Shown in pieces: positions 16,372 to 63,693 of a stretch of 64,000 nt of DNA. Origin of the DNA: Faecalibacterium hattorii (GTDB taxonomy: Bacteria > Bacillota > Clostridia > Oscillospirales > Ruminococcaceae); contig NZ_PRLC01000007.1 in the NCBI RefSeq assembly GCF_003287455.1, positions 1 through 64,000 of the forward strand, given 5' to 3'. A program made the position numbers and the translations under genes. The notes beneath the pieces were generated by a model. That model was not told the DNA's origin. It was given only the letters and a program-made list of their open reading frames with translations, and made no database searches. Numbering within the stretch: position 1 is the stretch's first letter; each line of letters opens with the position of its first letter.

Positions 16372-16372
16372 C

Positions 16373-16735: not shown

Positions 16736-16796
16736 GGTATCACCTCGCAGATGTGAGTCACTTGTTATTATTGTACCTTCTTTCTGTTCACAAAAC

Positions 16797-17100: not shown

Positions 17101-17132
17101 GCCCCCGGCTTCCTGTCATGGAAACCGGGGGC
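17101..17132 (-). terminator. Terminator of the C69 dipeptidase gene
   Basis: GCCCCCGGCTTCC (17101-17113) pairs with 17120-17132 (one mismatch). On the minus strand it is followed by GTTTTG. Confidence 0.75.
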
Positions 17133-17172
17133 GCTGCGGTTTTATGGGAAACGCCTCAGGCGCTGCAAAGCC

Positions 17173-47904: not shown

Positions 47905-48135
47905 ATGAGCAGCTTCATTGAGTTCACCACCATTGCGCTGGTACTGGTCTACATCGGCGTGGCCGCATGGAAGATCTGCACCTGCCGCACCATCTCGGGC
48001 AGCATTGGCGTGTCCTGCGCATTCCTGATCGGAGGGTTCTTCATTCTCCCGGTGGCTTACTCGGTGGCCACCGTGGTGTGCTGGGTGGCCGCCATTGCAA
48101 TCGTTCTGGCACTGATCGGTGCCTTCTTCGGCTGA
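47905..48135 (+). CDS. Small two-helix membrane protein
   Basis: 76 residues with two or three hydrophobic segments (FTTIALVLVYIGVAAWKI; GVSCAFLIGGFFILPVAYSV; VVCWVAAIAIVLALIGAF). AAAGGAGGATGCTTT precedes the ATG, and the AAA+ gene follows 13 bp later. It may anchor the AAA+ or JAMM-E1 protein at the membrane, judging by position only. Confidence 0.7.
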   Translation: MSSFIEFTTIALVLVYIGVAAWKICTCRTISGSIGVSCAFLIGGFFILPVAYSVATVVCWVAAIAIVLALIGAFFG

Positions 48136-48148
48136 AAGGAGCTTAGCA

Positions 48149-49483
48149 ATGAAAGAATTTGTCTTTGGCACGGCCGCACAGTTCGACTGGCTGGAAGCAC
48201 TGCTGGCCGATGGCCGCTGCCATGTGTTTGAGCACTGCGTGCTGCCCCCCGGCTGCACGCCGGGCACGGCACGGCTGGGCTTTGAAAAGAACAGCAGCGT
48301 CTATATCCTCTACATCGACTACGGCATCAAGACCACGGTGCAGGATGCAAAGTTCTGTAGCCTGCTGGAGCAGGGCGAGGTACGCTTTGTCTGCATGCAG
48401 GATATGGTCGAGTTCCTGTATGCGCTGCAGCCCCTGTTTGGTGCAGCGGCCCCTTCCGCTGGTGCGGAGCCTGACAGAGCGCAGGCAACACCCCCTGTGG
48501 CAGAGGAAACGCCTTCGGAGGACGATGTGGTGGACATGGCGGCGGTGCTGGAGCAGCGGGAAAAGCGGGAGCAGCCCCAACTTGTGGACCCGGAAAAGAT
48601 CAGCGGTCCGCTCAAGAAGCATGTCTTTGGGCAGGATGATGCCCTGAACGACATCGCGGAGCTGGTGGCGGTGCACAAGATGCAGAAGAAGGAGAAGATC
48701 CTCACCGTGATGCTGCTTGGCCCCACAGCAACAGGCAAATCAGAGACCGCAAAGTCGCTTGCGAAGATACTGACCGGGATCTACGGCACCGAGTACGGCT
48801 GCATCGAGGTTGCGGGCAGCGAGTTTGCAAGCTCCCACACCGTGAACCGCTTTTTCGGCGCGCCTCCGGGCTACGTCGGCCACGGCCAGCCCACAGTGCT
48901 GGACCCCGTGCGGCAGAACCCCTACCAGATCATCGTCATCGACGAGATCGAGAAGAGCGACCCCAAGGTGGTGGAAGGGCTCATGGAGGCCATTGACACC
49001 GGCAAGCTAGGCATGGCGGACAATTCCCCCGCCATCGACCTCAGCCGCTGCATCCTGATCTTCACCTCAAATCTCCCCATCCCCATGGACAAGTACCGGG
49101 CAGCCGGTGACTTCGAGCGCACCGAGATCTGCCGCGATGCCTTCACCAAATACTGCCACCGGCCCGAGATCAGCGGCAAGATCGCCAACTACATCGTCTA
49201 CCAGGAGCTTAGCCCCGAGGCCAATGCGCGCATCGTGATCAAGTTTATTCGTCAGGAGCTGGCGAATTACGACATCAAGCTGCGCTCCATCGACCCGGCA
49301 CTGCTCAACGAGTTCCTTGACTTCAATACGGCTTACGGTGCCCGCACCCGCGCCGGGAACGTCCGGGCATCGGTGGGCCGGCAGCTGCTGCACCTGCAAC
49401 TGAGCCACCCGCAGGAGGTTCTGGCCGGGAAGTCGGCAGCCCTCAGCGGTTCACTGCGCAAGATCCAGTTCGATCTTGCTTAA
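48149..49483 (+). CDS. ClpA/ClpB-like AAA+ ATPase with an island-specific N-domain
   Basis: 444 residues. Residues 1-98 are a domain shared with the 52503-52802 protein (MKEFVFGTAAQFDWLEALLA, RCHVFEHC, LGFEKN). An acidic linker follows. The AAA+ module has VFGQDDALNDIAEL, Walker A GPTATGKS (191-198), pore loop GYVG (241-244), Walker B IIVIDEIEKS (261-270) and sensor IFTSN. This is the second-ring type of Clp/Hsp100 ATPases, so it is probably a protein unfoldase. No IGF/IGL ClpP-docking loop is visible. AAAGGAGCTTAGCA precedes the start. It overlaps nothing and leads directly to the JAMM-E1 gene. Confidence 0.88.
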   Translation: MKEFVFGTAAQFDWLEALLADGRCHVFEHCVLPPGCTPGTARLGFEKNSSVYILYIDYGIKTTVQDAKFCSLLEQGEVRFVCMQDMVEFLYALQPLFGAAAPSAGAEPDRAQATPPVAEETPSEDDVVDMAAVLEQREKREQPQLVDPEKISGPLKKHVFGQDDALNDIAELVAVHKMQKKEKILTVMLLGPTATGKSETAKSLAKILTGIYGTEYGCIEVAGSEFASSHTVNRFFGAPPGYVGHGQPTVLDPVRQNPYQIIVIDEIEKSDPKVVEGLMEAIDTGKLGMADNSPAIDLSRCILIFTSNLPIPMDKYRAAGDFERTEICRDAFTKYCHRPEISGKIANYIVYQELSPEANARIVIKFIRQELANYDIKLRSIDPALLNEFLDFNTAYGARTRAGNVRASVGRQLLHLQLSHPQEVLAGKSAALSGSLRKIQFDLA

Positions 49484-49499
49484 GAGAGAGGAGAATACC

Positions 49500-51203
49500 A
49501 TGCGTAACGAGTTCTTTGCAAACATTGAAGCCGGTGCTGCCGCGGTGCGCAGCCTTGCGTGCAGCTCTGCCGACCGTCTGACCCGCCAGCTGGCAAGCGA
49601 CCCCGTGCGGGAGAGCCAGAACCAGCTGCCCTGCCCGGAAAAACCGGCGGAGCCTACGGTCCGCTTTTCCCGCCAGGTGCTGGCGGACTTCCGAAGCAAT
49701 GTGGGCCGCTACGCCCCCGAGACCGGCGGCATGATGGGCAGCACCGGGGATATGGCGCTGGTGGACCTGTGCCACTTCGATGCCCTCTCCCGCAACACGC
49801 CGGGCACCTTCTACTACGATGTGGATTCCATGACAAAGGTGTTCCACGACTGGGCCGAGAAAGGCTACCGCGTTACCGGCATCTACCACAGCCACCCCCG
49901 CGGCTGCATCCGCCCCTCCTACCACGATATTTCCACGGCGCTGATCCATCTGCGCTTCTTTGAGCAGGACTTCTTCTACCTGCCCATCCTTCGGCCTGCC
50001 CGCAAGGGGCTGTTCACGCTGTATTTCTACATCGTGCACCTCAAGGGCGATACTCTGACCGTGGATCTGGATCATGTGCTGCGGGCGGAAAGCGGCAGCC
50101 GCTATGCGCTGTGCACGTTTGCCCCGTGGCACAGGGAATACTCTGTGGCGGAGATGGACGCATACCGCGCTTCGCTGGAAGCACAGGAGCAGCCTGAAAC
50201 ACCTGCCGAAGACCCTGTAGTCAAGGCCCCCGCACAGCCTGCCGAGACCCCGGATTACTTCGGCAAGGTGCGTTCGCTCTACCCCCAGAAGGTGCTGGAG
50301 CAGAAAGTGGTGGTCTGCATTGGCGTGGGCGGGGCACGCAGTTTCTTGGAAAACTGCGCCCGCTCGGGCTTGCGCAACTTCATCCTCATGGACCCGGACA
50401 TCGTCAGCCCCTCCAACATAGCGACGCAGGCCGTGTTCATCTCCGAGATGGGCCGCAAAAAGGTCGAGGTAATCCGCGACCGCATCCGCGATATAAACCC
50501 GGACGCACAGGTGCTCTGCATCCCGCGTGCGCTGGACGATGCCATGAGTGATGAAGCGTTCAAGGCATACCTCGACCGCTTCCCCGGTCGCAAAGTTACC
50601 GATTACCTGATCCTTGGCTGCACTGATAACTTCGCAGCCCAGAAACGCTCTTCCATGCTGGCGCTGAAGTACGGCATGCCGTATCTGGCAGCCATGATGT
50701 ACGCACATGGTGCGGCTGCGGAGCTGATTTTCCTCTACCCCGGTGTGACGGCCAGCTGCCCGCGCTGTTTGCTGCGCAGCCGGTTCGAGCAATACGAACA
50801 CGGCTACCAGAACGACGTGGACTCCTCGGCCTGCCCCATCTTCGCCACCGAGCGGATGAACGCCACAAAGGGGTATCTGGCTCTGATGCTCCTGCTGTAC
50901 CACGAGGCTCCCGGCAGCCCCTTCAACACGATGCTGGACGCGGTGAAAGACCGCAACTTTGTGTGGATCCGCCTTGCCCCGGACCTCAAGGAACAGCTGG
51001 GCATCCAGCTGTTCGATCAGGTGCTGGGCGGGGACGCCGGGTGCTTTGCCTACATGGACGAGACGCTCTGGGTGCCCCAGCACCCGGATCGGCCCGAGTT
51101 CGGTGCAAAGCCCTGCAAGATGTGCGGCGGCACCGGCGACCTGCGCCACCTGCAGGTGGACTGGGCCGAGCTGGACACCCGCGCTATCCACTTCGACACC
51201 TGA
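49500..51203 (+). CDS. JAMM metalloprotease fused to an E1/ThiF-like adenylyltransferase
   Basis: 567 residues. Residues about 50-200 are a JAB/MPN domain with the complete JAMM signature: Glu74 (ETGGMMGS), then H130-S-H132 and S140-Y-H-D143, i.e. HxHx7SxxD, as in deubiquitinases. Residues about 255-567 are an E1/ThiF domain: CIGVGGARS (nucleotide loop), LMDPDIVSPSNIATQ (the usual Arg of SNxxRQ is Thr), GRKKVEVI and GCTDNFAAQKRSS. Two Cys pairs, CPRC (420-423) and CKMC (539-542), form a zinc site. Such fusions activate and recycle ubiquitin-like modifiers. AGAGAGGAGAATACC precedes the ATG. No signal peptide. Confidence 0.9.
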   Translation: MRNEFFANIEAGAAAVRSLACSSADRLTRQLASDPVRESQNQLPCPEKPAEPTVRFSRQVLADFRSNVGRYAPETGGMMGSTGDMALVDLCHFDALSRNTPGTFYYDVDSMTKVFHDWAEKGYRVTGIYHSHPRGCIRPSYHDISTALIHLRFFEQDFFYLPILRPARKGLFTLYFYIVHLKGDTLTVDLDHVLRAESGSRYALCTFAPWHREYSVAEMDAYRASLEAQEQPETPAEDPVVKAPAQPAETPDYFGKVRSLYPQKVLEQKVVVCIGVGGARSFLENCARSGLRNFILMDPDIVSPSNIATQAVFISEMGRKKVEVIRDRIRDINPDAQVLCIPRALDDAMSDEAFKAYLDRFPGRKVTDYLILGCTDNFAAQKRSSMLALKYGMPYLAAMMYAHGAAAELIFLYPGVTASCPRCLLRSRFEQYEHGYQNDVDSSACPIFATERMNATKGYLALMLLLYHEAPGSPFNTMLDAVKDRNFVWIRLAPDLKEQLGIQLFDQVLGGDAGCFAYMDETLWVPQHPDRPEFGAKPCKMCGGTGDLRHLQVDWAELDTRAIHFDT

Positions 51204-51245
51204 GAGCTTTTTGCACCGCAAACCGGTGGCTGAAACAAAAGACCC

Positions 51246-51291
51246 TGTAAACCAGCGGTTGATTCCTTTCCCAACGCAGGAGGCTTATAAT
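51246..51291 (+). promoter_or_regulatory. Island promoter A
   Basis: The motif TGTAAACCAGCGGTTGA starts 40 bp before TATAAT (51286-51291). There is no consensus -35. It drives the Gly-repeat gene. Confidence 0.75.
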
Positions 51292-51404
51292 ACAAACAAC
51301 ATAAGGCTTCACAAGTCTTATGCTGAAAGATACACTTCCGCCGGTCTGGCACCCAACCCGGGGTGCCCAGCCCAGTGGTCACACAAAACGGAGGTCTTTG
51401 CCCT

Positions 51405-52199
51405 ATGGCAAACGCAGAAATGGTCCGCATCCACACCCACAACATCCATGAGGAAGCGAAGATGAAGAACGAAACTATGAACGCCCGTAACCAGCTGCCT
51501 GGTGGCGGCTTCCACGGCAGCGAGCAGCAGACGAGCCTGCCCGGCGGCGGCTTCCATGGCGGCGAGCAGCAGACGAGCTTGCCCGGTGGCGGCTTCCACG
51601 GCGGCGAGCAGCAGACGAGCCTGCCCGGCGGCGGCTTCCACGGCGGCGAGCAGCAGTCGAGCATGCCCGGCGGCGGCTTCCGTGGCGGCGAGCAGCAGTC
51701 GAGCCTGCCCGGCGGCGGCTTCCATGGCGGCGAGCAGCAGACGAGCTTGCCCGGTGGCGGCTTCCACGGCGGCGAGCAGCAGACGAGCCTGCCCGGCGGC
51801 GGCTTCCACGGCGGCGAGCAGCAGTCGAGCATGCCCGGCGGCGGCTTCCGTGGCGGCGAGCAGCAGTCGAGCCTGCCCGGCGGCGGCTTCCATGGCGGCG
51901 AGCAGCAGACGAGCTTGCCCGGTGGCGGCTTCCACGGCGGCGAGCAGCAGTCGAGCCTGCCCGGCGGCGGCTTCCACGGCGGCGAGCAGCAGTCGAGCCT
52001 GCCCGGCGGTGGCTTCCACGGCGGCGAGCAGCAGACGAGCTTGCCCGGCGGTGGCTTCCACGGCGGCGAGCAGCAGACGAGCTTGCCCGGTGGCGGCTTC
52101 CACCATGGAGACGAACGGCAGGGTGACCCGTCAGAGAGCTGGCAGAAAGTGACTCTGCTTCTGGAGAATGGGGAAAGAGCCGATGTTCTGATCGAATAG
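51405..52199 (+). CDS. Tandem Gly-Gly-Gly repeat protein (LPGGGFHGGEQQTS units)
   Basis: 264 residues. A 30-residue head (MANAEMVRIHTHNIHEEAKM...) is followed by fourteen 14-residue repeats of LPGGGFHGGEQQ(T/S)S. A diverged fifteenth and a short tail (WQKVTLLLENGERADVLIE) end the protein. The tail resembles a beta-hairpin of a beta-grasp fold, but this is weak. Two units (5 and 9) read MPGGGFRGG, so a four-unit block has been duplicated. ACGGAGG precedes the ATG. It lies directly after JAMM-E1 under its own promoter A. It could be a modified or cleaved substrate, a scaffold, or an adhesive surface repeat; no signal peptide is present. Confidence 0.9.
   Translation: MANAEMVRIHTHNIHEEAKMKNETMNARNQLPGGGFHGSEQQTSLPGGGFHGGEQQTSLPGGGFHGGEQQTSLPGGGFHGGEQQSSMPGGGFRGGEQQSSLPGGGFHGGEQQTSLPGGGFHGGEQQTSLPGGGFHGGEQQSSMPGGGFRGGEQQSSLPGGGFHGGEQQTSLPGGGFHGGEQQSSLPGGGFHGGEQQSSLPGGGFHGGEQQTSLPGGGFHGGEQQTSLPGGGFHHGDERQGDPSESWQKVTLLLENGERADVLIE
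51495..52082 (+). repeat. Fourteen 42-bp tandem repeats
   Basis: Units of 42 bp encode 14 residues each and are nearly identical at DNA level, with synonymous and few coding changes, so they are recent or homogenised. Units 3-6 and 7-10 form a repeated 168-bp block. Confidence 0.92.
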
Positions 52200-52352
52200 G
52201 ATTAGAAGGCCATCTGGCCTCGCGAGGATGGAAGGCAGCTCAATATGCTGATCCATGACGGGCATCTGGTGTCGGAACTCGCTTGGTCATTCGTCTGACA
52301 GATAATAACGAAAGGAGATGATCGCAAAGCGCCTTATGGCGGCTTTGAGCAC

Positions 52353-52402
52353 AGCGGCCTGCAGACAGGGTGGCCAACCTGTCTGCAGGCCGCTTTTCTT
52401 TT
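52353..52402 (+). terminator. Strong terminator after the Gly-repeat gene
   Basis: A perfect 17-bp stem (AGCGGCCTGCAGACAGG, 52353-52369, with 52378-52394) is followed by TTTCTTTTTTT. Between 52200 and 52352 I see only short frames, one with AAAGGAG next to an ATG that again runs through the terminator. Confidence 0.88.
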
Positions 52403-52411
52403 TTTGTGCGG

Positions 52412-52457
52412 TGTAAACCAGCGGTTAGTTCAAAGCAGCCGGGATAAATTTTATACT
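52412..52457 (+). promoter_or_regulatory. Island promoter B
   Basis: The motif TGTAAACCAGCGGTTAG starts 40 bp before TATACT (52452-52457). It drives seven genes (52503-58239). Confidence 0.78.
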
Positions 52458-52502
52458 GGGACCAAAGCACAGCAAATGTGCAGCCAGAAAGGAGAAATGC
52501 CT

Positions 52503-52802
52503 ATGAAGGAATTCGTTTTGGGGACCGATGCACAGTACGAGATGCTCAAGCAGTCCCTAAATGATGATCGGTGCCATGTCTATGAGAGGTGCATCTTTCC
52601 TTCCTCGTTCAGTCGCCCCTCTGGGCGGATCGGCTTCGAGAAGGAGCAGGTGGGCTATGCACTTTTCATCGACAAAGGGCTCACCTGCGGCTGCCCGGTA
52701 GCCTCCCGGCTTCTGAAAAGCTGGCTGAAGGCCGGAACGCTGAAGTTTCTAGATTATACCGACATGAAGGTATTTCTGCGGAGCCTGACCTATCTTTATT
52801 GA
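52503..52802 (+). CDS. Stand-alone version of the AAA+ N-domain
   Basis: 99 residues similar end to end to residues 1-98 of the AAA+ ATPase (48149-49483). Shared features are MKEFV.GT.AQ, RCHV.E.C, R.GFEK, Y.L.ID.G and a C-terminal DM..FL..L. The family is not one I know. As a free copy it could be an adaptor that competes with or feeds the ATPase. AAAGGAGAAATGCCT precedes the chosen ATG; an ATG two codons earlier is too close to the site. Confidence 0.8.
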   Translation: MKEFVLGTDAQYEMLKQSLNDDRCHVYERCIFPSSFSRPSGRIGFEKEQVGYALFIDKGLTCGCPVASRLLKSWLKAGTLKFLDYTDMKVFLRSLTYLY

Positions 52803-52825
52803 AGTTACTTTGGGAGGAAGACTTT

Positions 52826-53278
52826 ATGGAAGAACTTATTGGCTGGGTGCTTTTGGCAATCTTTGTGGTGGCTGCGGGCAGAGTTGGGTATTTGATCTAT
52901 CAAAACAACCGGCACCCGGAGCAGGCAGCGGCTTCGGCAGCAACGGCCCGGCGTGACCCCCACGGTGAGACTGGCCCCATGATCTACTTTGCCAACGATG
53001 CACATGGCCGAACGGACCGTGAATATCAGTTCAACTACAAGTGGGTATACGATGGCACCCTTCACGCATACACCTGGCGCGCGTACATCCTGCGGATGCC
53101 CAGCCTGTGTGGTCGCCCCAGCGACGGCCACAGTACCCACCGCTGGAGCGATGCGAACGGCAACCACTGGGTCTGCTGGGATTCGCCCGTCACAAGCCTG
53201 ACCAAGATGCAGTCGGTGTCCCGGCTGTGGGCGGACAGTGTGCAGGAGTACATTGCCACCGGCAAGCTGTTTGGCTGA
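52826..53278 (+). CDS. Membrane-anchored protein with an E2-like C-terminal half
   Basis: 150 residues: one N-terminal membrane helix (GWVLLAIFVVAAGRVGYLIY), a variable linker, then a compact domain. The C-terminal half shows STHRWSDANGNHWVCWDSP (His106... Cys117) followed by VTSLTKMQSVSRLWADSVQE and a final TGKLFG. The order His, Gly, hydrophobic-Cys, Pro and a long helix matches the active-site region of ubiquitin-conjugating (E2) enzymes, so Cys117 is a candidate thioester site. The assignment is by pattern only. GGGAGGAAGACTTT precedes the ATG. Confidence 0.65.
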   Translation: MEELIGWVLLAIFVVAAGRVGYLIYQNNRHPEQAAASAATARRDPHGETGPMIYFANDAHGRTDREYQFNYKWVYDGTLHAYTWRAYILRMPSLCGRPSDGHSTHRWSDANGNHWVCWDSPVTSLTKMQSVSRLWADSVQEYIATGKLFG

Positions 53279-53292
53279 AAGGAGAAGGCACG

Positions 53293-54021
53293 ATGAAACG
53301 ATGTCCAAACCCGGACTGCCGTTCGGAGTTCTTCTTCGGCGATGCCAAGACCCACTGCCCCTTTTGCCACAGCGTTCTGGTGCAGGATACGGCACCTGCC
53401 GCCTCTCCCCGGGTGAGCCTACCGCTTTCGCCCCTTGTCAGCCCGCCGCAGGCACAGGCAGAGCCAGTGTTCATGCAGCACGGCCGGGGCGGCATCACCT
53501 GCACCGGCCGCGTTCTGGAACTGGACCATCAGGCTGTGTTTTACAGTCGGGCGCACAAGCTGTTCAATGCGCTGGTGCGCAGGGAACCGTATCAGTTCGC
53601 CCACCAGACGCTGGAATACACCGTCCGGGTCGAGCCCATCACCGACGAGGTGCCCAGCGAGGTGACGGACTTCTGCCTGTACGGCAACTGCCTGGGGCGC
53701 ATCCAGATCGGCGATGAGGTGCGTATCCGGGCAAAGGAACAGGGCGGCCACCGGGTGGTAAAGTCCATCTACAACCTTGCCACCGGCTCAGAGGTGAAGC
53801 CCGGGCTGCAGCTCAGCGCCACAGCCATCTGGCTGACGCTGGGGTTGCTGGCAGCGCTGCTTGCGGCCCTTGCCTGCACGGTGGTCTACCTGTTCCGCTC
53901 CGGAGTGGTAGCGGCATTCCTGCTGGCACTGCTCGCAGCCTGCATGCCCTTGTTCATCATGCTGATCGGCTTCTGGATCTTATTCCGGAGCGTATTTCCC
54001 AACCGCAGAAGAAGGAGGTAA
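53293..54021 (+). CDS. Zinc-ribbon membrane protein of unknown function
   Basis: 242 residues. The N-terminal zinc ribbon is MKRCPNPDC...HCPFC. A Pro-rich linker follows, then a beta-rich domain (GGITCTGRVLELDHQAVFYS, NCLGRIQIGDEVRIRAKEQG) with an OB-fold-like feel. Two C-terminal membrane helices (IWLTLGLLAALLAALACTVV; AFLLALLAACMPLFIMLIGF) and a basic end NRRRRR complete it. AAAGGAGAAGGCACG precedes the ATG. The HerA-like ATPase gene follows after 3 bp. Its role is unknown; it could anchor or regulate that ATPase. Confidence 0.75.
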   Translation: MKRCPNPDCRSEFFFGDAKTHCPFCHSVLVQDTAPAASPRVSLPLSPLVSPPQAQAEPVFMQHGRGGITCTGRVLELDHQAVFYSRAHKLFNALVRREPYQFAHQTLEYTVRVEPITDEVPSEVTDFCLYGNCLGRIQIGDEVRIRAKEQGGHRVVKSIYNLATGSEVKPGLQLSATAIWLTLGLLAALLAALACTVVYLFRSGVVAAFLLALLAACMPLFIMLIGFWILFRSVFPNRRRRR

Positions 54022-54024
54022 GCC

Positions 54025-56508
54025 ATGAACCCCTACAGCACTGAACTGCGCCGCGCCATGACGCTGGCCGACCAGATCCTTGCCCTCAAGCAAAACCGCG
54101 GCCTGGTCGATGCTGACGCCATGCAGGTGGACGCAGGCGCGTTTTTCCCCAACATCTCCCGCTGGACGCAGATGTGCGGCTTCCGCATGAGCGGCCCGCC
54201 CGAAGCAGGCAAGGCCCTGCTGCAAAAGGCTGCGGCGCGGTGGCTGCGTGCCGCCCACCAGAGCGGTGCCGCCTCGGCGTTCGTGTTCCGCACGGATCAC
54301 GGCAGTGCAGCCGCCTTCTACGGCAGCAGCATCGACAATGCAGCATTGTTCCAGTCGCTTTTGCCAGAGTGCGAGACCAGACCGCAGGCGTCCTGGTTCA
54401 GCGGTGGCTACCGCTGTTCGGGGCTGTTCCTGGGCACCTTTACCGCTGATGGCGTGGCCGAAGCACTGGCTTCGTCAGGGCTGGACCGCTGCTACGCGGC
54501 CTTCATCGCCCTGCCCGCAGCGGATGCCGACATTCAGGCCCTGCTGGAAGATGACCGCCGTCTTGCCCGGCAGCTTGAACCCTGCAAGGCGTTCCCCCGG
54601 GTGTGCGGCAGCGCTTCCCGCCGCACGGTGGAGGTGCCGGTGCAGAATGTGGCGGCGGCGCTGGATGCACTGCAGGAGGAGATCACGCTGCTGGAAAAGG
54701 CCCGCAGCACCGGCCTTGTGCAGGCGGTGATCCGCTTTGGTGCGGACAGCCGCACCGACTATCTGCAGCTTGCCGGCATCATCCGCGCATGCCTTGCCGG
54801 GCGGGAAGAGCAGCCGGGCTTTGAGCCTATCCGCTGCTTTGACCTGCAGGGGGATTTCCGCTATCCGGAGACCTGCCTTGCCATCCCCCGCGCAGCGGTA
54901 CGCCTGCCCGACGGCACCGCCGCCGCAGTCTATGTGGCAAGCCTTCAGAGCGCCGAAGCGGCGGCATCCTTCTGCGTGCCGCCCACCTGCGCCTGCCCGG
55001 GGTTCTATGTGCAGAACCCTGTGGAGGACGAGGGTTGCCGGGAGCTGTTCCCGGTGGTGCGCCCCATCGCGGCGGCAGGCGTCACGGCGGGCCGCGTGCT
55101 GGGCAGCGGCGCACCGGCAGCGATCCCGTTCTCGGCGCTGCTGTGCCACACGGCGGTGTTCGGAGCCTGCTGCACCGGCAAGACCACGCTGGTGAAGAAC
55201 CTGCTGGTGGACCTGTGGGCCCGGCAGCAGACCCCCTTCGTGGTGTTGGAAGCGGCCAAGAAGGAGTACAACGCTCTGCTGGGGCAGATCCCTTCGCTTA
55301 TGGTCTATACCTCCGGTGCCGATGGCCCATTGCTGCGCATCAATCCGCTGCGCCCGGAAGACGGTACGCTCATAGAGAACCACGCCGCCGTTACGCTGGC
55401 GCTGACGGCTTCCACCGGTGCAGAGCACCCCATCCCGGAGGCGTTCAGCGGCCTGCTGCAGCAGACCTACCACCGCTTTGGCTGGGAGTACGGCATGGCG
55501 GCCTACACCGACCCGGCAAAGCCCTTCCCAACCTTTGCCGATGTGCTGGCTGGGGTGGAGGACTATGTCGCCCACCACGCCCGCTATGGGCCTGAGGTGC
55601 GCCAGAACCTGACCGGTGCGCTGGAACTGCGCGCCGAGACCATGACCAGCGGTGCGTTGGGCCGCGTGTTCGCCGACCCCTTTGGCATGACGGCAAAGCA
55701 GCTGCTCACGGTGCCTACGGTTCTGGAACTGGCCGACTTCTCGGAGGAAGCCACGGCCTTCCTCATGAACATCCTGATGTTCCGCTTCCAGTCTTACCTG
55801 CAGCGGCTGCCCGAGTCTTCGGCGCTGCAGCGGCTCATCGTGCTGGAAGAGGCCCACAACGTGTTCCGCAAAACGGACGCCGAGGACAGCGCACTGGCCC
55901 GCTCCAACCTAGCCTTCGACAAGATGTTTGCCGAGATCCGTGCCAGCGGCACAGGCCTTGTCCTCAGCGACCAGCGGCCCTCCCTGATGCCGGATTCCGT
56001 CATGGCCAACACCGCCGTCAAGCTGTGTCTGGGCATGGATTCCGGCGAGGACCGGGGCTGCATGGGCAGCGTCATGGACCTTTCGGTGCTGCAGCGCCGT
56101 GCCCTGCACGCCTTCCGGCCCGGCGAATGCCTGATGACGGTGCGGGGCACTCACGGGGTGTTCCACCTGCAGACGGAAAAGCCCGGCACATCCGGGAGCT
56201 TTACGGCGGCCTGCCTTGTGTGCGGCAGCCGGTTCCGCTGCAGGAAAAGTGCCGTGCAGGGCCTGCTGGCCCCGCTGGATGCAGGGCAGATGCAGTACCA
56301 TCTGGCCCGTATCCGTGCCGACCCCTACAACATCCCTGTGCTTGCGGAGAACATCGAACAGATGCTGCAGCAGCTGCGCATCACGGCGGCAGCACCTACA
56401 AAGCTCTGCCTGCTGGGCGAAATGCTGGCCGGAGCCGGGGTGCCGCTGGGCGAGAGCCGACAGATCGTGACCGCATACCATAACCACCTGAAAGGAGGAA
56501 CTGTATGA
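54025..56508 (+). CDS. HerA/FtsK-like hexameric ATPase
   Basis: 827 residues. The first 350 are a poorly known domain, followed by a DUF87/HerA-type ATPase. Walker A is GACCTGKTTL (about 379-388), the FVVLEAAKKEYNALLG region follows, and Walker B is LIVLEEAHN (about 604-612). SDQRPSLMPDSVMANTA is sensor/arginine-finger-like. The C-terminal stretch has a zinc-like pair (CLVCGSRFRC). HerA/FtsK enzymes pump DNA or occasionally proteins through a hexameric ring. AAGAAGGAGGTAAGCC precedes the ATG. Its stop overlaps the next start (ATGA). Confidence 0.87.
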   Translation: MNPYSTELRRAMTLADQILALKQNRGLVDADAMQVDAGAFFPNISRWTQMCGFRMSGPPEAGKALLQKAAARWLRAAHQSGAASAFVFRTDHGSAAAFYGSSIDNAALFQSLLPECETRPQASWFSGGYRCSGLFLGTFTADGVAEALASSGLDRCYAAFIALPAADADIQALLEDDRRLARQLEPCKAFPRVCGSASRRTVEVPVQNVAAALDALQEEITLLEKARSTGLVQAVIRFGADSRTDYLQLAGIIRACLAGREEQPGFEPIRCFDLQGDFRYPETCLAIPRAAVRLPDGTAAAVYVASLQSAEAAASFCVPPTCACPGFYVQNPVEDEGCRELFPVVRPIAAAGVTAGRVLGSGAPAAIPFSALLCHTAVFGACCTGKTTLVKNLLVDLWARQQTPFVVLEAAKKEYNALLGQIPSLMVYTSGADGPLLRINPLRPEDGTLIENHAAVTLALTASTGAEHPIPEAFSGLLQQTYHRFGWEYGMAAYTDPAKPFPTFADVLAGVEDYVAHHARYGPEVRQNLTGALELRAETMTSGALGRVFADPFGMTAKQLLTVPTVLELADFSEEATAFLMNILMFRFQSYLQRLPESSALQRLIVLEEAHNVFRKTDAEDSALARSNLAFDKMFAEIRASGTGLVLSDQRPSLMPDSVMANTAVKLCLGMDSGEDRGCMGSVMDLSVLQRRALHAFRPGECLMTVRGTHGVFHLQTEKPGTSGSFTAACLVCGSRFRCRKSAVQGLLAPLDAGQMQYHLARIRADPYNIPVLAENIEQMLQQLRITAAAPTKLCLLGEMLAGAGVPLGESRQIVTAYHNHLKGGTV

Positions 56509-57452
56509 GCGAGATCAGCGGCGGCAGCGCCGAGAACGATGAGATGAACACTCCCGAAACAGGCGGCGAGACAGGCCAGACCGGCTCCGGAGGCACCGAA
56601 GGTCTTGCGGGCGGGAACCTGGAGAGCGTCCAGCTGGGCGAGGGCAGCGAAGTACCGCCCGCCGCCCCAGCAGCCGAAATCACCCCTGCCCCGGCAACAG
56701 AGGTACAGGAGCTCAGCCCGCAGCAGCAGGCCGAGGTCATCCACCAGAATACCATCGCCAGTATCCTACAGGAGAACGGGGCCTACTTTTCGCCCAAGGA
56801 TGCGGCCCGGGTCAGCCAGGGCGCAGACAGCATCCGGGTGGTGCAGGACCTTGGCGAGGGGGTGACCGGCGGCTACCGCTACAGTGAAGGGAAAAGCTCG
56901 ATCCAGCTGCTTGCCACCAGCAAAAACCAGCTGGAACGCTCTGCCATCCATGAGACGGTGCACTGCAGCAGCTTCAACCGGGAGATCATCGTGCCCGAGC
57001 CGTCAAAGGGCGGCTACATGGTCTACAATACCGTGGGCACCCGTCAGGCATCCTGGTTCAAGTCGGATAAGAATGGCGAGATCTCCAACTATGCAGAGAA
57101 AGGCAGAGGAATGAACGAGGGTATCACGACCATGTACACAAACCGGGAGCTGGCCAAGATTAGCCAGGAACGTGCCCTTGCCGCCCAGCGCCAGCAGATC
57201 TACGGCCATGCCACAGACCTGTGCACAGCACTGGAAGGGCAGGTGGGCGAAGCACCCATGAAGGAAGCCTTCTTTGGCGGCAACATGAAGGCGCTGGAAG
57301 ACAAGGTGAACGAACTGGCAGGGGATAAAGTGTTCGACAGCCTACGCAGCTGCCTGGACCGTGCCATTTCCGATGACTATACTGAACGTGTGGCCGCCAC
57401 CCGGGAGGCACAGGAGATCCTGGCCCGGATGGCAGAGAGGAGCAAAAAATGA
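56505..57452 (+). CDS. HExxH metalloprotein with a low-complexity head
   Basis: 315 residues. Residues 1-70 are a Gly/Thr/Glu/Pro-rich, disordered head. The central part includes the zinc motif HETVH (149-153, in RSAIHETVHCSSF) and a possible third ligand region MNEGITTMYTNRE. The tail is helical. There is no signal peptide. It could be a protease effector or modifier-processing enzyme, and similarity to known toxins is not visible. AAAGGAGGAACTGT precedes the ATG. It is coupled to the HerA gene upstream and to the next gene by ATGA overlaps. Confidence 0.75.
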   Translation: MSEISGGSAENDEMNTPETGGETGQTGSGGTEGLAGGNLESVQLGEGSEVPPAAPAAEITPAPATEVQELSPQQQAEVIHQNTIASILQENGAYFSPKDAARVSQGADSIRVVQDLGEGVTGGYRYSEGKSSIQLLATSKNQLERSAIHETVHCSSFNREIIVPEPSKGGYMVYNTVGTRQASWFKSDKNGEISNYAEKGRGMNEGITTMYTNRELAKISQERALAAQRQQIYGHATDLCTALEGQVGEAPMKEAFFGGNMKALEDKVNELAGDKVFDSLRSCLDRAISDDYTERVAATREAQEILARMAERSKK

Positions 57453-57838
57453 TGATCGATCTGGTATTTGATTATATGGCAGCAAAAGGCGTTGTCTTTT
57501 ATAGCCAGGAGGAGATGAAGACCGCCGAGGCGGGCATCCGGGAGTATCTGCAGTGCAATGGCATCCCGGAAGAAAAAAACGACGAATATTACCGTGATTA
57601 CCTGCACAGGGGGCTGGATATCATCGACCCTGCGGACCTGAAAGCCTATTTTCTGCACCGGAAGGCGATCAGCCTTGTGGTGCAGCTGCGAATCGAGCAA
57701 GCCCACGCAGGCGGCGTGCTCAAACCGGAGCGTGCTGTCCTGCTGCGCGAAGCGCTGGCCGAACTGTACCGTGCAGGGCTGGGGGAACGCTATGTGCCCA
57801 CCGAAGAGCAGGCCCGCATCGCAGGGAGTTTCGTCTGA
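57449..57838 (+). CDS. Unknown 129-residue helical protein
   Basis: Helical throughout (MMIDLVFDYMAAKGVVFYSQ, KNDEYYRDYLHRGLDI, AVLLREALAELYRAGLG), acidic, soluble. AGAGGAGCAAAAA precedes the ATG, and start and stop overlap the neighbours, so it is translated with them. No family is recognised. Confidence 0.65.
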   Translation: MMIDLVFDYMAAKGVVFYSQEEMKTAEAGIREYLQCNGIPEEKNDEYYRDYLHRGLDIIDPADLKAYFLHRKAISLVVQLRIEQAHAGGVLKPERAVLLREALAELYRAGLGERYVPTEEQARIAGSFV

Positions 57839-58311: not shown

Positions 58312-58896
58312 ATGCAAGTGATTCAAAAAAGCAGCAGCGGCACCCAGAGCTTTCCGCTGGATGCCATGCTTCTGGCGCAGCGGACGGTGTTCCTGACCGG
58401 TGAGATCAACACCAGCACGGTCAACGCCATCATCCAGCAGCTTCTGTTTCTGGAAAGCGCAGATGCCACAGCCCCCATCAAGCTTATCATCACCTCGCCC
58501 GGCGGCACCGTGCAGGCGGGCCTTGCCCTTTACGACCAGCTGAAGGGCATGACTGTGCCCATCGACCTGTACTGTGTGGAGTTGGCGGCCAGCATGGCGG
58601 CGGTGATTTTGGCCGGTGGAAGACGTGGCCACCGCTTTATCCTGCGGCACAGCATGGTCATGATCCATGAACCGCAGATTGCTTCCGCTTCGGGCGGGGT
58701 ATGCGGCAGTGCATCCTCCATCCAGAAAACGGCAGAATCCATTTTGACCACCAAGCGAGAACTGACCGGCCTGCTGGCACGGGACACCGGCCACCGGGTG
58801 GAAGAGATCGAAGCGGCCATTGGTTACGACAACTTCATGAAAGCGGACGAGGCTGTGGCCTTTGGAATCTGCGACCGTATTGTGGACCGAGTGTAA
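58312..58896 (+). CDS. ClpP-like serine protease
   Basis: 194 residues, normal ClpP size. The handle is LIITSPGGTVQAGLAL, the nucleophile region ELAASMAAVI (Ser94), the catalytic His in RHSMVMIHEP (His119), and the Asp region GYDNF (Asp173). The usual GxASMGA is ELAASMAA here, still with Ser. The hydrophobic-pocket N-terminus (loops that dock Clp ATPases) is reduced. It is a second ClpP dedicated to the island, presumably fed by the AAA+ ATPase; pairing is inference. AAAGGAGTGAATTACC precedes the ATG. Confidence 0.9.
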   Translation: MQVIQKSSSGTQSFPLDAMLLAQRTVFLTGEINTSTVNAIIQQLLFLESADATAPIKLIITSPGGTVQAGLALYDQLKGMTVPIDLYCVELAASMAAVILAGGRRGHRFILRHSMVMIHEPQIASASGGVCGSASSIQKTAESILTTKRELTGLLARDTGHRVEEIEAAIGYDNFMKADEAVAFGICDRIVDRV

Positions 58897-58907
58897 AGGA
58901 GAGTACG

Positions 58908-60188
58908 ATGAAACGAGATTCTCTTGTTGTGGCGGAAGGCTGTGTGCTGTCCGGTGACGAGGTGGGCCGCACTCGCCCCAACGCAAATGCGCTGATCGTG
59001 GGCACCACCGGCTGCGGCAAAAGTACTAGCGTGATCCTGCCCACAGTGGCCCGGATGCACTGCAGCAACCCGATCCTGAGCTATGCAAAAGAGCGGGACG
59101 CCTACCTTATGGCAGAGTACCTCAAGCGCAAAAACTACATGGTGCACATCCTGAATGCGGCACACCCCAAGAAGAGCACCCTCAGCTACGACCCCATTGC
59201 TTCCATCGAGAGTTATGCGGACATCGAGGCACTGTCGGCAGCCATCGTGGATATGTCCATCCGCAAGAGCGTGGATGATTACTGGCAGGTCAAGGCAAAG
59301 CAGCTGCTCTCGGGCCTGATCGCTGGCTGCTTCATGACCTCCAAAGGCAGCCGTATGCCCGGCATGGCCGATGTGCTGGCACTGTTCGACAAGACCATTC
59401 CTTGCGAAAATGCCTATGGCGTTGAGCCGGAGCTGTATGGGATGTTCCAGCGGCTGGAAAAGGCCTCGCCGGGGTGCTTTGCGGTGCGGGAGTTTAACAG
59501 CTGGCGCAGCTTGCCAGAACGCACGGCATCCTGCGTGCGGGATACTCTGGCGGGTGCTTTGAGCACCGTATTCCCGGAGTCCATCCGCCGCATGATGCGA
59601 GAAAAACCGCAGTTCGACACTGTGCGTTTTGCAAGCCGCAAGGAAGCATTGCTGGTGATCACCTCGGCGGCAGACACCGCACAGCAATACTATGCGAACC
59701 TGTTCTACCGCAGCACGGAGCAGCAACTGCTCCGATATGCGGCCAGCTGTCCCGGCGGTGAGCTGCCTCGGGAAGTGCGCTACATCTTTGATGATTTCGC
59801 CTGCACGGCCCCTATTCAGGGCTTTGCCAGCGACATCAGCCTGTTCCGCTCGGCAGGGCTTTCGGCCATTCTGCTGCTGCAGTCGGAGCAACAGCTGGAA
59901 GCTATGTACAAAGAAGAAGCTGCCGTCATTCGGCAGAACTGTGCAGTATACGCTTACTTCCCCGGCGGGTTCGATAACCGCTCCTGTGAGATCGTCTCCA
60001 AACGGATGGATCTGCCATACGACGAGGTGCTCTATGCACCGATGGGTAAGGTGTTCGTAATGAGGTCAGGGTGTCGGCCGGCATGCCTGCCCCGCTACGA
60101 CACCCTGAACAGCCGGGAATACCAGGAGTATCTCAGTTGCAGCAATGACCGCACCGGCCGCAGACGCTTTGGAGGTGATGAGCTATGA
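58908..60188 (+). CDS. VirD4/TraG-like coupling ATPase
   Basis: 426 residues with Walker A VGTTGCGKST (about 31-40), the VirD4-type SYDPIASIESYADIEALS, the coupling-protein motif DDYWQVKAKQLLSGLIAGCF, Walker B-like YIFDDFACTAPIQGF and a C-terminal FPGGFDNRSCEIVSKR. Such ATPases recruit substrates to type IV secretion or conjugation machinery, but no N-terminal membrane helices and no other tra/vir genes occur here. GTAAAGGAGAGTACG precedes the ATG. The stop overlaps the next start (ATGA). Confidence 0.85.
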   Translation: MKRDSLVVAEGCVLSGDEVGRTRPNANALIVGTTGCGKSTSVILPTVARMHCSNPILSYAKERDAYLMAEYLKRKNYMVHILNAAHPKKSTLSYDPIASIESYADIEALSAAIVDMSIRKSVDDYWQVKAKQLLSGLIAGCFMTSKGSRMPGMADVLALFDKTIPCENAYGVEPELYGMFQRLEKASPGCFAVREFNSWRSLPERTASCVRDTLAGALSTVFPESIRRMMREKPQFDTVRFASRKEALLVITSAADTAQQYYANLFYRSTEQQLLRYAASCPGGELPREVRYIFDDFACTAPIQGFASDISLFRSAGLSAILLLQSEQQLEAMYKEEAAVIRQNCAVYAYFPGGFDNRSCEIVSKRMDLPYDEVLYAPMGKVFVMRSGCRPACLPRYDTLNSREYQEYLSCSNDRTGRRRFGGDEL

Positions 60189-60381: not shown

Positions 60382-61428
60382 ATGCAGGATCGTTCGACGA
60401 TGACGCTGGGGGGATACCTGTACAGCGTTTTCTGGAAATTCGTGGTGGGCTATGTATGGTACCGCAGCCTGCTGTTCCGCCCGCTGGCGGGGCTTGAACG
60501 CAAAGCATCGCTGCACATTCTTTTGTGGCTGACGGCGGCTGCGGTACTTGCGCTCAGCCTTGGCTTCCGCCGCAGAAAAAACGGGTGGATCTCTTCAGCC
60601 TGCATCTTTCTGCCGTTTGGGCTGTACACGGTGCTGGCTTACGCAAACACCTTCCGCACACGCATTCTGCTGATTTTGATGCTGGCGGCTGTGCTGGCAA
60701 TGGGCCTTACCGCCGTGATGTTCTGGGGCAGGCGGCTCTCGCGCCGCCGTTTCCGGGCAAGGGTCTCCCGCTGGAAGTACCTGATGGTGTGTACGGCAGT
60801 CTCGGCCAGTGTCTGCCTAATCGGCAGTGTAGGGTGGCATGCGTTTCTGGAAGGGGAGCTGTTTCCCGCCGCAGTAAAAGCACAGGCATCGGCCGTGGAT
60901 GAAACGCAGGCGCAGACCATTGCCTCGAACATCAGTGAGGTGCTGAAGCTGCAGCCCGAGGTCTGGCAGGACCTTACCACGGCCCAGCGCATCGACACGA
61001 TGCAGACGATCTGCAACATCGAGGTGTATTATCTGGGCCTGCCCTGTGCGGTCACGGTGAGCGGTGCGAACCTTCCGGAAAACACGCTGGGCAGTTACGA
61101 TGACAGCAGCCGGGCCATCAGCATCAGCATCGAACATCTGGAAAATGACCCGGTGGAAGAAGTGCTGGACACCCTGCTGCACGAGATCTACCATTGTTAC
61201 GAACATCGCCTTGCAGAGGTGTACACCTCCGCAGACCCGGAACTGCAGCGGCTGCGGCTTTTCCGCGATGCAGCCGATTATGCCAATGAGGTGGCGCAGC
61301 CGGTGGACCCGGAAGAAGACTACAACGCCTATGCCGCGCAGGCACTGGAAACGGACAGCCGCGCTTATGCCGCTGCCGGTGTGCAGGAATACTACCACCG
61401 CATCGCGGTCTATATGGCGCAGAACTGA
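60382..61428 (+). CDS. Membrane zinc metalloprotein (HExxH)
   Basis: 348 residues. The N-terminal half has about four hydrophobic helices (ILLWLTAAAVLALSLGF, FLPFGLYTVLAYA, ILLILMLAAVLAMGLTAV, YLMVCTAVSASVCLIGSVGW). The C-terminal half is extracytoplasmic or cytoplasmic and has the motif HEIYH (about 266-270, in TLLHEIYHCYEHRL) with later Glu/Tyr-rich helices. It is a predicted membrane metallopeptidase, last in the island. The weak site GGAG lies 3-4 bases before the ATG. Substrate is unknown. Confidence 0.78.
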   Translation: MQDRSTMTLGGYLYSVFWKFVVGYVWYRSLLFRPLAGLERKASLHILLWLTAAAVLALSLGFRRRKNGWISSACIFLPFGLYTVLAYANTFRTRILLILMLAAVLAMGLTAVMFWGRRLSRRRFRARVSRWKYLMVCTAVSASVCLIGSVGWHAFLEGELFPAAVKAQASAVDETQAQTIASNISEVLKLQPEVWQDLTTAQRIDTMQTICNIEVYYLGLPCAVTVSGANLPENTLGSYDDSSRAISISIEHLENDPVEEVLDTLLHEIYHCYEHRLAEVYTSADPELQRLRLFRDAADYANEVAQPVDPEEDYNAYAAQALETDSRAYAAAGVQEYYHRIAVYMAQN

Positions 61429-62095: not shown

Positions 62096-63559
62096 TTACA
62101 GGGCAAGCGCCATGCCTGCGGAAATGGTCATTGTAACAGGAAGCGCTTTGGCACCCTGAGGAACATTTGGCCTCATGGGACGGAGCTCCTGCAGGTAGTC
62201 CGTCACATCCTGCAGGAGCTGCTCAATATGAGCAATGTCCAGCGGGAGAATGCGGTCGCTCTGCAAGCCAAAAGAGTTATCGTTTGCATGGTTGACCTGA
62301 TTGCGGTAATGTATCACCCTTTGATAAAGCATTGCCGCTCCTTCGACCTGTCGCTGTACCTTATGGTCTATGACCAGCTGTCCAAAATCAATTGCCTCCT
62401 TCACATAGTCGTGGACCTCTTCTGCACTTGCCACGCCAAACAATATATTGCCGTCTTCATTTTCTCTGTTTCTGTTCAAGCGCAAATCTGCCGTATAGTG
62501 AAGTTTTTGCTGCAGCAGCGCCATCCGGCAGAAATGGAAATGAAACAATGGATACACCCATGGTTTCCCTTTGTTCTCTTTCCGTGTTTCCAAATATTTG
62601 AGCCCGCTTTCCGTAGGCTGTAAAAAAATATGGCTGCAAATATACTCCGGCATCTGCTCACACAACAATGTCAGCGCCTGCTGATATAACCCATGCTTTG
62701 CACACCAGCTCACCAGTTCCGGCAGCTTATCCAAAGCCCTCCGGTTATTTTCCTGTGATGCCAGCAGACCTTCGAATTCCATACGGAAACGATCATTCAA
62801 CAGATGAAAAAACAGGCTGATCAGGGTTTTGCTCTCTTTAGGCGGTGTCTGTAATGCCTGTGCGATCTGACGCAGATCCTCATTCAGTGCCTGCACCCGG
62901 CACAAAGCCAGATCATCCGAGAATCGATTGATGCAGGTCAGCAGCATGTGCAGAACCGGGTCGTTTTCGCCTTCGCTCTGCAAGTAATTTTTCAGCTTTT
63001 GTGCCGTTCCGGTAGAAAAGAATTCGTCCATTGCTGTGATCAGGTCGAATAAATTGTACAGCATACTGCTGTCGTGGATGCGGGAAGTCCCGTCCGGGCA
63101 CAGCTCAGAATAGATCACTCTGCGGGTCTCCACGCCTCGCAGGTCCCGCATACACCGGGCAGCTGTTACCAGCAGCATGGCAGTGTCCCGCATACCACCA
63201 GAAAGGTCGATGGAAAGGGTATCTTCTGCTTCGATTTTACCCAGCAGCAAAGAGATCGCCCGGAACTGCGCTTGATCATCCATGCTGTCCGGCACCGGGA
63301 TCACCACAAGCCGCTCTGCCGGAATGTCCACTGAAGGCAGGAACACATCCCGGAAATACTCTACAGTGGTGCAGGTTTTTCCGTCCGGCAGATGCACGGT
63401 AGGTTTGGTGCGCACCAACTCACTGCACAGCGCCAGAATGTAGTCCGGGCCTTCTTTGTGCTTTCTTAGTTCCTGAACGGCCGCTTCGTTGGTTTGGGTA
63501 TGGATATTCGGATTTCTGCCGAACGGACTCATATACAAAAGCAATACATTGCGTTCCAT
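62096..63559 (-). CDS. CARF-HEPN ribonuclease (Csm6/Csx1-like)
   Basis: 487 residues. The N-terminal part is a CARF sensor: LLLYMSPFGRNPN (about 7-19), then IDLSGGMRDTAMLLV (about 117-131), the ligand-binding motif of proteins activated by cyclic oligoadenylate. The C-terminal part is helical with the HEPN RNase motif RNQVNH (about 419-424, Rx4H). Known relatives degrade RNA when type III CRISPR complexes make the signal. No cas10 is in view. AGGAGGATGTGTAAG precedes the ATG. Expressed from the promoter at 63694-63722. Confidence 0.85.
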   Translation of the reverse strand: MERNVLLLYMSPFGRNPNIHTQTNEAAVQELRKHKEGPDYILALCSELVRTKPTVHLPDGKTCTTVEYFRDVFLPSVDIPAERLVVIPVPDSMDDQAQFRAISLLLGKIEAEDTLSIDLSGGMRDTAMLLVTAARCMRDLRGVETRRVIYSELCPDGTSRIHDSSMLYNLFDLITAMDEFFSTGTAQKLKNYLQSEGENDPVLHMLLTCINRFSDDLALCRVQALNEDLRQIAQALQTPPKESKTLISLFFHLLNDRFRMEFEGLLASQENNRRALDKLPELVSWCAKHGLYQQALTLLCEQMPEYICSHIFLQPTESGLKYLETRKENKGKPWVYPLFHFHFCRMALLQQKLHYTADLRLNRNRENEDGNILFGVASAEEVHDYVKEAIDFGQLVIDHKVQRQVEGAAMLYQRVIHYRNQVNHANDNSFGLQSDRILPLDIAHIEQLLQDVTDYLQELRPMRPNVPQGAKALPVTMTISAGMALAL

Positions 63560-63693
63560 CTTACACATCCTCCTGTTCTGTCCGCATCCGCAGCAGCTTC
63601 TGCTACCAGGTCTCATGCCGCTGTGATACGGTCACTTTGTTCGCACCGGGAAATTCTGCTACAGTTTTATCCTGGGCGGTTTCTTTTATCTGC

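Follow-up and report, generated by a model that had tools for sequence, protein, structure and literature searches.

A fusion of a JAMM protease domain with an E1-like adenylation domain (JE1) was found to be encoded within a 64,000-nucleotide stretch of the Faecalibacterium hattorii genome (contig NZ_PRLC01000007.1, positions 1 to 64,000; hereafter the window), and it is proposed, with confidence evenly balanced, that this protein is the core of a compact peptide-conjugation system which uses a short peptide as its modifier. The fusion is very rare, and the bacteria that carry it seem to be gut commensals related to Massiliimalia. The working set came to six sequences in four lineages, namely the window, L035, L033 together with L051, and L034 together with L037, with L033 and L034 being two locus copies in one genome, that of Massiliimalia massiliensis (G228). 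In all four lineages three genes are constant near JE1: a Clp-type AAA+ ATPase, an E2-like protein and a short peptide gene with the motif [LM]PxGxF. The features of JE1 itself are as follows:

49500..51203, + strand: JE1, the JAMM-E1 fusion gene, 567 amino acids, ATG at 49500 and stop codon TGA at 51201-51203
~49710-49940, + strand: JAMM domain, N-terminal
~50286-50783, + strand: E1/ThiF domain, C-terminal to the JAMM domain
50337..50339, + strand: codon of R280, in place of the third Gly of GxGGxG; the glycine loop reads GVGGARS
50424..50426, + strand: codon of T309, in place of the NxxRQ Arg; the motif reads SNIATQ

The presence of an E1-like adenylation domain is indicated by the Pfam ThiF profile, which matched residues 263-428 of JE1 at 74.3 bits (cut-off 28.1). 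The Prok-JAB profile matched residues 71-147 at 23.4 bits with the whole protein, slightly below its 25-bit cut-off, and at 26.7 bits, above it, in a genome search. A preliminary description of this DNA, the scope of which was JE1 and did not extend to the repeat peptide, the E2-like gene or the AAA gene, had described the JAMM residues as complete and as an exact fit to HxHx7SxxD. This was borne out, with E74, H130, H132, S140 and D143 all found at the right spacing and invariant in the alignment of the six fusions. With its metal and catalytic residues kept in 6/6 members the JAMM half looks intact, in keeping with the earlier view of an active protease half.

The E1 half departs from the canonical ThiF-MoeB pattern, the active-site Lys and Asp being present and both the GxGGxG loop and the Arg of NxxRQ being lost. 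The six members were aligned with 38 E1-like proteins of other loci (40 control loci were given, two of which had no match; the twelve E1-only loci of the pattern scan described below served as outsiders only), an unbalanced sample in that 28 of the 40 loci are from genomes of the same family and TcdA-like by eye. The column of the NxxRQ Arg reads T, T, N, T, T, N in the JE1 members and R in 36 of the 38 outsiders, with the other two carrying N and K, while at the third Gly of GxGGxG the members read R, R, I, A, A, I and 38/38 outsiders G. At position 311, next after the Gln, the members read A, G, R, R, R, R, and no outsider carries Arg either there or at position 280 (0/38 in each case). There is one new Arg per member, at 280 in the window and L035 and at 311 in L033, L034, L037 and L051. 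Judged from the alignment, the departures are not due to chance; the new neighbouring Arg is consistent with substitution for the one lost from NxxRQ, which is probably replaced by R280 or R311. Because D298, D300, N306, Q310, K321 and D376 are retained in all six members, "specialised" fits this half better than "dead".

The earlier readings of SNIATQ for SNxxRQ and of GVGGARS for the glycine loop were confirmed at T309 and R280, and the view that the activating half is altered or specialised gained support, as both departures recur in 6/6 fusions with the ATP-site residues otherwise kept and none of the related fusions has SNxxRQ. The possibility that the Arg is supplied from a neighbouring position was also raised, as a counter-argument, in the preliminary description; at the level of sequence, the extra Arg at 280 or 311 in every member is consistent with it. 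The candidate catalytic Cys put forward there, C445 (50832-50834), was rejected as it is not conserved across the six fusions: its column has Cys in L035, a Cys shifted by one in L033 and L051 and none in L034 and L037. The only cysteines invariant in the six sequences are C420, C423, C539 and C542, in a CxxC...CxxC pattern which we take to resemble the structural zinc site of MoeB and ThiF. The JE1 family profile matched 20 solved sequences at 1e-6, with UBA5 first, followed by TcdA, MccB, PaaA, ThiF and MoeB. In a ThiF-like enzyme of a ribosomally synthesised and post-translationally modified peptide (RiPP), which was set beside MccB, the reported contacts to ATP/Mg include an Arg, a Lys and an Asp (PMC12250964), and the K321, D376 and Arg columns of JE1 would presumably be the same contacts. 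A clade-wide loss of the E1 Arg together with a new Arg at one of two nearby sites amounts to a natural experiment on which ATP contacts are needed.

The short peptide was examined in all of the JE1 loci. The start of the gene is missing in L051 at the contig end, so that only the last seven residues are visible.

51462..52199, + strand: repeat-peptide gene of the window, 245 amino acids from the chosen ATG, 15 copies of [LM]PGGGF, unit of 14 amino acids (42 bp)
52354..52405, + strand: intrinsic-terminator-like hairpin with T run, ~155 bases 3' of the peptide gene; 52340-52415 folds at -42.4 kcal/mol
L035, 6129-6314: peptide of 61 amino acids, three motifs, end ...KMPAGTFR
L033, 11471-11554: peptide open reading frame (ORF) of 27 amino acids, end NGGREGQELPSGVFC, ribosome site judged good by eye, located 5' of the E2-like gene
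L034 (reverse strand) and L037 (from 7398): peptide ORF of 39 amino acids, end SLPPGTFRNS, upstream of the E2-like gene
L051, contig end: peptide with LPIGVFC visible

In the window gene, Tandem Repeats Finder detected 14.5 copies of the 42-bp unit with 93% matches. The motif is present in 15 copies there and in one to three elsewhere, and the unit is alike across lineages, as seen from LPVGIFNGGREGQE in L033, the typical unit LPGGGFHGGEQQTS in the window and MPAGTFRGGEQSTSK in L035. The two motifs of L033 lie 14 residues apart, the same spacing as in the window, and F(N/H)GG is found in both. In the five loci other than the window, [LM]PxGxF ends one to three residues short of the C-terminus of the peptide, and the Gly of LPxG is the only Gly at a common position in every terminal unit. 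A stable hairpin was also found 3' of the peptide gene in L033 and L034, with a weaker one in L035 (-13 kcal/mol).

The 58 other loci examined, which partly overlap, cover 372,604 bases; in them no ORF of fewer than 100 amino acids had the motif within three residues of its end, and eight such ORFs had it elsewhere in the sequence. When the upstream regions were shuffled with dinucleotides preserved, at least one motif arose in 3 of 3000 shuffles for L033, 7 of 3000 for L034 and 0 of 3000 for L035, counts that are flattered by the motif having been picked after the sequences were inspected. No short ORF with a C-terminal motif was found in the loci with the AAA gene only (L093 and L094) or with the HerA gene only (L067-L069), and for this reason the peptide is considered to track the E1 and E2 genes.

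A p150-type protein with a conserved domain of ~90 amino acids was found in every lineage, the window protein being 32% identical to that of L033 over 68 residues. The gene lies directly before JE1 in L033, L034, L037 and L051.

52826..53278, + strand: p150, N-terminal membrane helix and E2-like domain (~residues 51-150)

The membrane helix, as one predicted transmembrane segment, belongs to the window and L035 forms and is absent from the L033 form. R97, H102, H105, C117, W135 and Y142 are among the residues invariant in the alignment of the family. The AlphaFold2 model of p150 has a mean predicted local distance difference test score (pLDDT) of 70.7, with blocks from residue 61 on ranging from 60 to 85. 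In a VIA comparison of this model the first match was the CBASS (cyclic-oligonucleotide-based antiphage signalling system) E2 of 8hsb_B, with a root-mean-square deviation of 2.8 over 95 residues and a Z of 6.6, where values below 8 can reflect a common arrangement; it was the sole chain of 999 with Z of at least 5. The rows with Z below 5 were mixed (CV_2116, UFC1, a kinetochore chain, a TRAF helix, BubCD, other E2s and type III secretion chaperones), and among the 50 VIA rows listed 29 are E2 or UEV proteins, 15 of these being UFC1 by our own count. Given that a Z below 8 may stand for a common arrangement, the fold evidence from the model is weak and p150 is termed E2-like and not E2. As a candidate for the modifier itself p150 was rejected, since a long helix is C-terminal and the C-termini of the family share no Gly.

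The third constant gene encodes the AAA+ ATPase, and homologs of it were found in L035, L033, L034, L037 and L051.

48149..49483, + strand: AAA+ ATPase of Clp (ClpA/B/C D2) type, with an N-domain of ~100 amino acids at 48149-48451
52503..52802, + strand: p99, a stand-alone AAA N-domain, 41% identical to the N-domain of the AAA; L035 has one too

The assignment draws on a Pfam AAA_2 match of 84.8 bits, on NCBIfam ClpB/ClpA matches below the equivalog cut-offs and on PDB matches to ClpB and ClpC. The LGF loop of ClpC1 is its ClpP-docking loop. In the AAA of L033 an IGF aligns with this LGF; judging by the aligned residues, degradation is a plausible outcome for the Massiliimalia form, with nothing pointing to it in the window form.

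The two locus copies in Massiliimalia massiliensis differ in some parts only. Between L033 and L034 the E2-like proteins are identical at 46/105 positions, JE1 at 185/448 and the AAA N-domain (residues 1-125) at 43/120, whereas the remainder of the AAA is identical at 320/352 positions and the next three downstream proteins are identical throughout (197/197, 781/781 and 321/321). With blastn the two loci are 97.2% identical over 6039 columns, starting at L033 13870 (about AAA codon 125) and continuing to the end of the compared stretch, and nothing upstream of that codon passes 1e-5. Because divergent upstream parts thus meet nearly identical DNA at about codon 125, the peptide, the E2-like protein, JE1 and the AAA N-domain have been swapped as one cassette. 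This swap is the strongest evidence obtained for an N-domain that reads something specific to its set of E1, E2 and peptide.

The same N-domain was also observed on stand-alone Clp-type AAA proteins in two genomes of the family (L093 8474-9889 and L094 2562-3917), which have flagellar and FtsA-like genes as neighbours by eye and no E1, E2 or peptide seen nearby; it is therefore not confined to the JE1 system. The AF2 model of p99 has a mean pLDDT of 85.6 and no clear fold match (best YkuJ, Z 5.7). With neither a clear fold match nor a C-terminal Gly, the idea of p99 and the AAA N-domain as ubiquitin-like proteins is not supported.

The rarity of the fusion was assessed in several genome draws, which overlap with one another. 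Among 297 genomes of the family, matches to JE1 better than 1e-50 were found in its own genome and G228 only. The draws from the order (394 genomes) and the class (391 genomes) gave JE1 only in its own genome, and 120 relatives of G228 gave it only in G228. When a collection covering 84,980 species was scanned by pattern, a type of scan which may miss diverged relatives, 16 related loci were returned. Four of them (L035-L038) are full fusions, and in the other 12 the match covers the E1 part or little beyond it. Of the four, L036 and L038 correspond to the G228 loci, leaving L035 and L037 as new fusions. Five scans of viral_contigs returned one contig, L051, or nothing, with no relative found in those made with the L034 JE1 and with the HerA pair. 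A plasmid or phage home was also looked for, and tblastn at E 1e-10 matched none of 72,556 plasmid and 50,697 phage records. A search of the viral fold library returned nothing significant. Loci L004, L036, L038, L071, L072 and L073 are the same as L033, L034 or L051 and were counted once; L002, L003 and L070 are the window itself and were not recounted.

From the observed gene content, its conservation, the co-occurrence of the motif and the swapping of the cassette, we infer a ubiquitin-like pathway, including each of its catalytic steps, its cut site, its targets and its biological role. Its modifier would be a short peptide ending near LPxG (in units of 14-15 residues or as ORFs 27-61 residues long, with a 15-unit polyprotein in one lineage). 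A minimal E2 and a JAMM-E1 whose ATP site has been rebuilt would attach it, and a Clp motor with a matched N-domain would act on the tagged protein, with tag, enzymes and reader being swapped together as a specificity cassette. We hold this detailed version a little below even confidence. The JAMM half would trim the [LM]PxGxF peptide, which in the window is the 15-unit polyprotein, and may later undo the conjugates. A cut after LPxG is likeliest, since this is where the only Gly at a shared place in every terminal unit lies. The E1 half would then adenylate the new C-terminus, with R280 or R311 probably standing in for the lost Arg. Because no catalytic Cys is conserved in the E1 half, the peptide would pass directly to C117 of p150, which is membrane-anchored in the window, and from there be attached to target proteins. 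It is expected that the AAA would recognise the tag or the enzymes via its N-domain, which also occurs alone as p99, and unfold the target, with the ClpP-docking loop of the Massiliimalia form pointing to degradation.

In the ORF lists of L033, L034, L037 and L051 the E2-like gene and JE1 alone lie between peptide and AAA and no beta-grasp modifier gene was seen. Pfam also gave no ubiquitin-like match for those window genes that were scanned, a result that allows for a modifier encoded elsewhere, and the models of p150 and p99 do not appear to be beta-grasp by their order of elements.

Several points weigh against the proposed pathway. There are just six sequences, some of them near-duplicates, and the choice of the motif after inspection has been mentioned. 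The terminal unit differs by lineage (VFC, TFR, TFRNS and a long tail in the window), and its maturation is guessed. Two ATP-site positions of JE1 are changed, so that adenylation is not assured, and the family has no conserved Cys for E1 catalysis. The E2-like gene does not adjoin JE1 in the window (three genes on) or in L035 (two on). Neither Pfam nor PADLOC gave an E2 profile match to p150, its model is weak around His102 and His105 (block pLDDT 61-66), and Foldseek against the PDB gave no significant match (best E 0.56), the top five rows having UbcH5 in their titles and none being significant; the low Z from VIA belongs here as well. The AAA of the window and of L035 is without the ClpP-loop segment.

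The same genes could be read as RiPP-type chemistry, where JE1 would act on a multi-core precursor by activating its C-terminus or its side chains and the product would be a small modified peptide, not a protein tag, with the E2-like protein and the AAA aiding maturation or immunity. A small ORF that has short repeated cores, a ribosome site of good quality by eye and a hairpin after it is in line with such a precursor, as is the place of MccB and PaaA among the nearest solved relatives of the E1 half. To our knowledge a JAMM fusion with an E2-like partner is not typical of RiPP clusters. It is, however, typical of conjugation and deconjugation systems (Iyer 2006, PMC1779556). In addition, no exporter gene was recognised by eye among the genes listed around the L033 and L034 triads, and the AAA N-domain swaps along with E1 and E2. 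This reading is considered unlikely. Somewhat less probable still is a role of the short ORF as a leader peptide or regulator, with the E1, E2 and JAMM acting on another modifier (such as a ThiS/MoaD-like protein of the host) or, in the manner of CBASS Cap2, on the C-terminus of a protein itself. The position of the peptide gene before the E2-like gene, with the hairpin after it, is attenuator-like in L033 and L034, and type II CBASS Cap2 links the cyclase itself to PspA (PMC11153139). Yet the 245-residue, 15-copy repeat protein of the window is no leader peptide, what is conserved in four lineages is an amino-acid motif, beyond mere position, and the C-termini of the AAA, the obvious self-modifier, are not conserved.

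To a similarly low degree we credit an E1 half that has lost ATP chemistry and become a binding scaffold, leaving JE1 as a JAMM protease for the peptide or for conjugates. The loss of the third Gly of GxGGxG and the NxxRQ Arg in 6/6 members and the lack of any conserved Cys apart from the CxxC pairs would suit a scaffold. They stand against D298, N306, Q310, K321 and D376 kept in 6/6 members, a new Arg near the lost one in each lineage and an E2-like gene retained nearby. If conjugation by E1, E2 and JAMM can indeed serve a short peptide, then the modifier fold is dispensable; the ubiquitin-type modifiers known to us are folded beta-grasp proteins, and Pup uses different enzymes from the ubiquitin-type systems. 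If the proposal is true, the system would be a minimal peptide tag, genetically encoded and equipped with its own writer, eraser and reader, that could be tested directly in E. coli.

JE1 is the third gene of a same-strand cluster from ~47905 to 57838, with the order p76, Clp-type AAA, JE1, repeat peptide, p99, p150, p242, HerA-like ATPase, p315 and p129. L035 retains all ten genes, with the peptide gene in first place. The cluster members not yet described are:

47905..48135, + strand: p76, two predicted transmembrane segments (hydropathy), 38% identity to L035 6384-6611
53293..54021, + strand: p242, putative zinc-ribbon start CxxxxC...CxxC (by eye) and a predicted membrane segment (hydropathy), 38.6% identity to L035
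54025..56508, + strand: HerA-like ATPase, PADLOC HerA 39.1 bits, 42% identity to L035
56505..57452, + strand: p315, probable zinc metalloprotease, HETxH and NEG motif
57449..57838, + strand: p129, 38% identity to L035

The HETxH and NEG motifs of p315 were found in 5/5 homologs checked (window, L035, L067, L068 and L069), with no Pfam match to p315 above cut-off. The p242-HerA-p315 module (window 53293-57452; L067, L068 and L069) also occurs without JE1: p242 homologs lie beside HerA in G222, G290 and G179, and p242 and p315 homologs flank HerA in three of the 14 short HerA loci examined. HerA was matched in 27 of the 297 family genomes, its own included. In G222 the module is accompanied by genes for a protein kinase, an FHA protein and a ClpB-like AAA, together with a gene that looks PP2C-like by eye. 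In the window, neither Rfam at its gathering threshold nor a tRNA scan gave a hit.

The genes following p129 (p133, ClpP-like, VirD4-like and p348) and the helix-turn-helix gene before p76 had no counterpart by tblastn (E 1e-2) in the remaining JE1 loci. The ClpP-like gene (58312-58896), with the motifs AASM and MIHEP, is one of three ClpP-family genes in the genome; as a partner of the window AAA it is unsupported, the AAA being without the loop and the gene being among those without a match. Its reading frame is overlapped by the start of the VirD4-like ORF (58701-60188), a conjugation protein of the CD1115 family at 171 bits (below the 250 cut-off) and a sign of a mobile element. At 60382-61428 a protein with four predicted membrane segments, a C-terminal HEIYH and a weak, below-cut-off SprT-like match is encoded. 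A Csx1/Csm6-type CARF-HEPN gene lies downstream of the island (62096-63616, - strand), and beyond the window, on its own contig (C50 65309-71634; L074), there is a type III-A set of Cas10, Csm2, Csm3, Csm4, Csm5 and Cas6 followed by an integrase fragment near 72483. Elsewhere, L034 adjoins a gene for a type I methyltransferase, L033 one whose STAND/NB-ARC matches are weak and below cut-off, and L035 a TIR/Sel1 gene (15394-17646) directly after the conserved island, while the L033 and L034 loci carry mobile-element genes, namely type IV secretion system coupling-like and replication-relaxation genes. The neighbourhood is defence-like, and it is only the neighbouring genes that suggest a defence role.

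Among known systems, Pup and UBact have a small, probably disordered modifier tied to an AAA machine, a likeness to the peptide and AAA described here; Pup is ligated by PafA and not by an E1, and the repeat unit of the window is far shorter than Pup. Both are named as prokaryotic degradation systems in PMC11354881. The E1 fold, the CxxC pairs and the retained Lys and Asp are shared with ThiF, MoeB and UBA5, the last being the best solved match of the family profile, whereas GxGGxG and NxxRQ are both changed in JE1. What JE1 has in common with MccB, PaaA and other ThiF-like RiPP enzymes is an E1-type domain whose substrate would be a short peptide encoded by a gene; MccB and PaaA have an N-terminal RiPP recognition element (PMC12250964), in contrast to the JAMM domain at the N-terminus of JE1 and its E2-like and AAA partners.

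The bacterial operons of E1, E2 and JAB were divided into types 6a-6e, with 6e being that of polyUbl (Iyer 2006, PMC1779556). The JE1 loci resemble 6e in having the JAB N-terminal to the E1 domain, a probable E2-fold partner, a tandem-repeat partner protein and a sporadic distribution (PMC1779556). They differ in a repeat of 14-15 amino acids against a polyUbl of beta-grasp domains of ~70-75 amino acids, in an E2-like protein with its His and Cys kept against an inactive E2/RWD (PMC1779556), and in the Clp-type AAA of 6/6 JE1 loci, with no Clp or AAA named in the 6e account (PMC1779556, section 14). Among the titles and abstract openings of the open-licence literature, none was found that brought together E1/E2/JAMM, a short peptide and a Clp ATPase. 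Type II CBASS Cap2/Cap3, CdnG-E2, Bil and Bub are likewise E1/E2/JAB conjugation systems near defence genes, and the p150 model appears nearest to the CBASS E2 of 8hsb; no cyclase, BilA or Bub modifier (Bub as cited in PMC13373217) turned up when the window genes were scanned for known families. As no beta-grasp modifier gene was seen, the JE1 system was not filed as 6e, Bil, Bub or CBASS, though it would work like them.

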